Below are positions 33,008 to 59,314 of a stretch of DNA of 59,314 bases, piece by piece. The position numbers and the translations under genes are program-made. The first letter of the stretch is position 1, and the number at the start of each line of letters is the position of its first letter. The stretch is taken from assembly GCA_903844155.1 (NCBI GenBank), contig CAIMSU010000125.1, forward strand, positions 1 through 59,314, written 5' to 3'. Source of the stretch: an uncultured Pseudomonadota bacterium (lineage in GTDB: Bacteria; Myxococcota_A; UBA796; SXON01). Below the pieces are notes generated by a model, which saw nothing but the letters and a program-made list of their open reading frames with translations, had not been told where the DNA came from and did not search any database.

Positions 33008-33056
33008 GGCGGCTCCGGGTTCGCGGAGGGTCAGAGCAAGCGCCGTGCCAGCCGAC

Positions 33057-58951: not shown

Positions 58952-59154
58952 CAAGAAAGTTAGAAGAAGCCGCAGCCTGGCGGGTGGCGACCGCGGCGTG
59001 GTTGTCGGTTTCCCGTCGCACGGGCAATCCTGATCCCGCGAATTCGGCTGATTCGTCGCCCGCGAGTTCTCCACAAGCGGTGCACCTCGCTTGGGATGGG
59101 AAACGATTTTCCCGCGAGCCCCCTCCAAAACGCCGCTTCGTCCGTTCGCGACGG

Positions 59155-59171
59155 TTGGCACGGTCCTTGCT
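59155..59171 (+). promoter_or_regulatory. Sigma-54 promoter TTGGCACG-N4-TTGCT
   Basis: TTGGCACG (59155-59162), four bases GTCC, then TTGCT (59167-59171): every position matches the YTGGCACGrNNNTTGCW consensus. The GG/GC spacing is right. Transcription would start near 59182 and read out of the window. No enhancer site was identified. Confidence 0.75.
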
Positions 59172-59188
59172 TAGGTCCCCCACGACAC

Positions 59189-59233
59189 CGGCGAAAGCCG
59201 AACGGTCGAAGCCGAAAGGCGGGTCGAAAGACC
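59189..59233 (+). ncRNA. Three tandem GAAA-tetraloop hairpins in the sigma-54 leader
   Basis: CGGC-GAAA-GCCG (59189-59200), GCC-GAAA-GGC (59211-59220) and GGTC-GAAA-GACC (59222-59233), followed by TTCTTT. The last could be a weak terminator or attenuator. A Shine-Dalgarno GGAGGAGA (59307-59314) stands at the window edge, so a gene should start just outside. Confidence 0.5.
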
Positions 59234-59314
59234 TTCTTTGACGTACTGACTCTTCCATCACGCAGATGGGATCCAGCCTTCACGGGCCGGGTTTCGGACG
59301 CGGGGCGGAGGAGA

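Follow-up and report, generated by a model that had tools for sequence, protein, structure and literature searches.

To our knowledge, few bacterial noncoding RNAs as large and intricate as the one described here are known, and each of them (RNase P, group II introns, OLE, GOLLD, and ROOL) opened new biology. GOLLD and ROOL are often mobile or phage-borne. The large ornate bacterial RNAs OLE, GOLLD, and ROOL form homo-multimers in cryo-EM (PMC12286853). Smaller RNAs driven by sigma-54 are also described as titrating proteins, as with CrcZ/CrcY (PMC6292655) and GlmY/RapZ (PMC7073468), and boxA, NusB, and NusE act in the antitermination of rRNA transcription (PMC4807359).

The locus considered here lies at the right-hand end of a contig of 59,314 nucleotides (C125 of genome G000), the whole of which was analysed and is called the window below. 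Judged from the anatomy of the sequence, the right-hand end of the window very probably falls within the gene of a very large noncoding RNA that is structured, autonomous, and driven by sigma-54. This RNA is, by prediction, a new class of large structured RNA, controlled by sigma-54 in the order of the window and distributed across Myxococcota. Only its first ~135 nt are assembled in the genome of the window, and the 3′ half, which was sought in that genome's own bin, is not present there; the body of the RNA in this species is therefore deduced from homology with sister species.

The full-consensus sigma-54 promoter that the earlier note had placed at the window edge is present as TTGGCACGGTCCTTGCT (59155-59171, forward strand), with the -24 GG at 59157-59158 and the -12 GC at 59169-59170. 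The extended sigma-54 consensus, TTGGCACG-N4-TTGCW, has this one match in the window and none in 100 dinucleotide shuffles. The further claim that the promoter is unlike any other in the window holds for the extended match and fails for the core, since a second TGGCACG-N4-TTGC at 33036-33050 on the reverse strand restricts the uniqueness of the promoter to the extended match. That second core, TGGCACGGCGCTTGC, is located just ahead of an ORF beginning ATGCCCATCCTCCTTCTCCTCGCCTGC, possibly a lipoprotein. Contig C343 of this genome has a further strong sigma-54 promoter (L003, 256-270), which precedes an ORF beginning ATGGCCCGCTCGCTCACC. Transcription from the promoter at the window edge is predicted to start near 59182, ~12 nt past the -12 GC.

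The region upstream of this promoter is conserved as well. A block, AAAACGCCGCTTCGTCCGTTCGCGACGG (59126-59154, forward strand), corresponds in relatives to AAAA-C-GGCGTTCGTCCGT at the same position, and the palindrome TGGGAA-ACGATT-TTCCCG (59097-59114) lies 59 bp upstream of TGGCAC, with one arm mismatch in the window copy. The palindrome is a candidate, and probable, site for the sigma-54 activator, that is, an enhancer-binding protein. In all 13 family-f1 loci of the RNA, TGGGA(N8)TCCCA is found ~59 bp 5′ of the promoter. A composite of palindrome-N28-58-TGGCAC-N5-YTGC gave 25 sites in 60 genomes and none for the reversed control; every one of the 25 leads into the large RNA, one of these contigs stopping 53 nt into the leader. 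At another locus (L010, 1536-1700, G007:C335), the upstream block and a sigma-54 promoter stand ahead not of the RNA but of a 33-residue ORF (MSKPLSLTDCKRIVTPSVRTGVRAGTGNGRFRF), possibly a co-regulated small peptide.

The frequency of the promoter was counted over the 36 loci of the window's order that have at least 700 nt upstream. TGG[CT]AC[GA]-N4-[TC]TGC[AT] occurs in 26 of them, at a background of 2 matches per 353,580 strand-bases, and the conservation of the promoter among orthologues of the RNA (TGGCAC-N5-TTGC) is that expected of a sigma-54-dependent unit. Outside the order, families f25, f30, f37, and f42 have a sigma-54 promoter ~440-520 nt ahead of the RNA core, and families f9, f13, and f17 mostly have boxA-like sites without a recognisable sigma-54 promoter. 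About a quarter of the order loci and most loci of these three families have no recognisable promoter of this kind, so control by sigma-54 does not extend to every member of the RNA family. In family f9 (L151-L165), sigma-70-like TTGCCC-N17-TAGTGT promoters could be seen by eye together with a boxA-like site, an apparent switch of promoter class for the same RNA.

Past the promoter, three GAAA-loop hairpins are followed by TTCTTTGACGT and then by GGAGGAGA at the contig end, so the hairpins, the TTCTTT, and the terminal motif had all been correctly read from the sequence. The GAAA tetraloops occupy 59193-59196, 59214-59217, and 59226-59229. The predicted fold of the leader has an energy of -55.4 kcal/mol, with z = -2.45 relative to 200 shuffles, and in it the 135 nt past the predicted start form P1/P1a, P2, and P3, then UUCUUUGACGUACUGA, which is unpaired, and the long P4, all on the forward strand. 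P1 (CGAC/GUCG, 59183-59208) is arranged around the hairpin P1a (CGGC-GAAA-GCCG, 59189-59200), and is followed by the hairpins P2 (GCC-GAAA-GGC, 59211-59220) and P3 (GGGUC-GAAA-GACCU, 59221-59234), for which relatives have GUUCGUUCACGAAC, CGUUCUUCUCGAACG, and GGUUCGCAAGAACC at the equivalent position. P4 (59250-59313) pairs CUCUUCC (59250-59256) with GGAGGAG (59307-59313). The earlier note had held that hairpins not conserved with compensatory changes would speak against a structured leader; all 17 leaders compared keep the four pairs of P1a, and two of these pairs show double compensatory changes.

The continuation of the leader can be followed in relatives. Contigs G002:C72 and G003:C28 run past it into ~1.36 kb of noncoding sequence, 77% identical to one another over the full length, and end in a G+C-rich hairpin and a T-rich run. 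In a second genus of the family (G015, G017, G019, G020, and G021), the promoter, hairpins, TCTTTGACGT, body, and terminator come in the same order. Predicted lengths in these homologues are ~1.06-1.5 kb, with terminator stems of 11-13 bp. In G051, boxA precedes the core by 1.84-1.87 kb and a T-run follows it at 0.7 kb, and the RNA may thus extend to ~2.6-2.7 kb there, lengths above 1.5 kb being derived solely from the positions of boxA and the T-run. At four loci (L149, L118, L137, and L077), a weaker second core match is located within the same RNA, which suggests internal module duplication and could account for the range of lengths. The proposal of a structured regulatory leader or a small RNA was thus borne out as regards a sigma-54 promoter with a conserved structured RNA, but not as regards small size, the RNA being ~1.1-1.5 kb in relatives.

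A covariance model of the 168-position core (R1), built from six sequences, gave matches in 35 of the 63 genomes from the order and in 40 of the 71 from the class, with up to six copies per genome. The search of other genomes by covariance model that the earlier note had advised recovered the core across Myxococcota: a second model (R2) matched 69 of the phylum's 379 genomes, and 29 of the 69 lie outside the class. In the outgroup phylum, that of Desulfatibacillum, R2 matched none of 198 genomes, and of 15 mixed genomes it matched two, in both of which the RNA loci were ones that the search of the order had recovered before. A core match is lacking in 28 of the 63 order genomes; incomplete assemblies with lost repeat contigs account for some of these, perhaps not all. 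Double changes are seen at 26 of the 36 core pairs among 24 diverse sequences, and the 116 double-change cells compare with 34.7 in shuffled alignments (0 of 500 shuffles) and drop sharply when partners are slid, although the core alignment was fitted to the model and the covariation count leans somewhat toward it. For six family members aligned over the full length without the model, the consensus fold has an energy of -238.6 kcal/mol, whereas 12 column shuffles gave -148 to -169; double-compensated pairs number 69, compared with 29-42 in the shuffles. This fold is automatic and its individual long-range pairs are unreliable. Covariation therefore exceeds the controls, as expected of a structured RNA.

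No known family accommodates this RNA. Among all 4227 families of Rfam 15, there was no match at the gathering score, nor at E values up to 5 (three loci) or 0.5 (eight loci). Membership of OLE, GOLLD, or ROOL was rejected for want of a covariance-model match in Rfam, as were group I and II introns for want of a match to the catalytic core or domain V. An earlier report of the RNA was not found in the open-access literature, and a partial earlier sighting may exist elsewhere.

With respect to function alone, a role of the RNA as an RNP scaffold is proposed tentatively, with somewhat less than even confidence. The strongest competitor is a protein sponge like the sigma-54-driven CrcZ, in which repeated CC-NNGA-GG and AACCCCAUGAG would be the binding sites. 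In the RNA bodies of 74 loci, CC-NNGA-GG occurs 195 times against 78 in shuffles and AACCCCA, as AACCCCA(UGA), 70 times against 2.4. The CC-NNGA-GG motif might alternatively represent a K-turn or a tetraloop receptor. It is because these motifs are repeated that the sponge is retained here, and the sigma-54-driven, protein-titrating sRNAs introduced at the outset provide a precedent. CrcZ, however, is a far smaller RNA with much less structure than the present one, whose conserved architecture and covariation point to a defined fold and not just a string of sites; we therefore regard a sponge as rather unlikely. Tetraloops are strongly enriched too, with 582 GNRA loops against 200 in shuffles and 215 UNCG loops against 55. 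By analogy with OLE, GOLLD, and ROOL, a scaffold or RNA assembly is favoured over a CrcZ-like sponge.

The RNA is a multi-copy element. One to six near-identical or related copies are found per genome, in unrelated gene neighbourhoods, and one genome that is 100% complete (G068, L151-L156) has six copies of the core. The promoter-leader element recurs in each of the four sister species within the genus, with two or three copies each, mostly at contig ends, and the sister genomes G001 and G004 likewise break at the leader. The last 141 bases of the window (59174-59314) are identical to the end of contig C343 from this genome, which marks an assembly-graph break at the multi-copy RNA; similarity between the two contigs reaches ~300 bp upstream, and the flanks beyond are unrelated. 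A length of 141 is a common maximal k-mer of assemblers such as MEGAHIT. On these observations, the end of the window is an assembly break within a multi-copy repeat, in a pattern like that of rRNA operons. The multi-copy RNA would account for the contig breaks, and short-read metagenome bins may hide such RNAs at contig ends. Three public contigs (L096, L126, and L136), titled Bifidobacterium breve (CALQBK020000055 and CALQBK020000009) or Klebsiella pneumoniae (CAMAWH010000102), carry the promoter-leader and are probably mislabelled Myxococcota bins.

Several copies per genome in unrelated neighbourhoods, and repeated internal modules, could also be expected of a mobile or phage-borne RNA or of a degenerate group II intron spreading in copies. 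Such an origin is improbable, since the copies retain their own promoter, boxA, and terminator and have no ORF, no match was found in phage or plasmid collections or to group II introns in Rfam, and the core pattern is absent from viral contigs, in which the promoter-boxA pattern has two matches. Moreover, long and short paralogue types of the RNA are found in each of three species, suggesting vertical descent.

The autonomy of the gene bears on a still less probable alternative, in which the leader would serve as 5′ UTR to a protein gene regulated by sigma-54, a pilin or other surface protein in the wording of the earlier note, with hairpins that regulate translation at GGAGGAGA. This could be thought of because the promoter is strong, the leader is structured, and the sequence stops before any gene. 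In relatives, however, the homologous contigs enter the ~1.1-1.5 kb noncoding RNA and its terminator, and no downstream gene is common to 20 loci. Among three close copies, substitutions are spread evenly over the codon positions (36/32/32 for G020a-G021a), and none of the five indels has a length divisible by three. No conserved ORF was found in the RNA; chance ORFs within it have a third-position G+C below that of flanking genes, and their frame and strand vary among loci. No conserved neighbour gene was detected near the 20 loci, which are of many genera, except for one cluster of three at more than 2.8 kb, and there was no tRNA or tmRNA nearby in the five loci scanned. As there is neither a coding signal nor a recurrent neighbour, the RNA is taken to be an autonomous gene. 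In addition, the supposed Shine-Dalgarno sequence, GGAGGAGA, is a strand of helix P4 in the predicted fold: GGAGGAG pairs with CUCUUCC, which leaves no free Shine-Dalgarno in that fold, and the partners are changed in relatives, with CUCCUC/GAGGAG and CUCCUU/AAGGAG pairs, then CCCAAGCCC, in G003 and G002. The attribution to a pilin or surface gene is thus abandoned as very improbable.

The TTCTTT of the window leader belongs to a boxA-like, putative antitermination site (UCUUUGACGU, 59235-59244, forward strand), which is unpaired in the fold. TTTGACGT is found 5′ of the core in 34 of the 36 order loci counted above. It resembles the boxA of local rRNA: in five of six 16S rRNA leaders checked from the order, boxA GGTCTTTGAAA is found a short way ahead of 16S, with a TCTTTGA core common to both, and none of the six has a sigma-54 promoter ahead of 16S. 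An rRNA operon leader with an unusual promoter, to which boxA, multiple copies, assembly collapse, and a bin without a 16S match in the window's genome might point, has the smallest likelihood of all and was rejected, because SSU or LSU rRNA was not found downstream, the 16S leaders of the order differ in having GGTCTTTGAAA near 16S without a sigma-54 promoter, and the RNA body matches no Rfam rRNA model.

Collectively, the autonomous, structured RNA remains the preferred reading, and a mechanism could be envisaged as follows. An AAA+ activator would bind the palindrome and open the sigma-54 holoenzyme on a specific, probably nutritional, signal; boxA would recruit NusB/NusE, allowing a long untranslated RNA to be made without Rho termination, as in rRNA operons; and the RNA might then work in trans, either as a scaffold on which an RNP or a multimeric assembly is built or as a protein-titrating reservoir. 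In a wider view, for and against which we are evenly divided, this would be a phylum-wide ancient RNA machine, a catalytic or architectural RNA of kilobase size with genes organised in the manner of rRNA (multi-copy, boxA) but switched on when needed through sigma-54 and an activator of its own, and without kin among known RNA classes. The RNA exceeds OLE, GOLLD, and ROOL in size and is found in many families of a phylum that contains complex multicellular bacteria. The inducible sigma-54 promoter hints at when the RNA is made, and full-length copies in several genomes (among them G002:C72, G003:C28, G021:C147, and G015:C7) open its structure and function to direct testing.

Compared to CrcZ/CrcY, GlmY/GlmZ, and Qrr, the RNA is likewise noncoding and under sigma-54 with a dedicated AAA+ activator, the latter being postulated here, but it is several-fold longer and extensively structured, has boxA, and shows no sequence relationship to them in Rfam. 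It shares with rRNA operons a boxA-like leader site, a long untranslated transcript, and near-identical copies that collapse in assembly, and differs in the class of its promoter and in having no rRNA homology. It resembles OLE, GOLLD, and ROOL, which are also very large and elaborate, with strong covariation and obscure function. Unlike these, the present RNA is not phage-linked and has no conserved neighbour gene; it belongs to Myxococcota, with sigma-54 and activator control, boxA, and several copies, and at ~1.1-1.5 kb in the window's family it is longer than OLE (~600 nt) and GOLLD (~800 nt).
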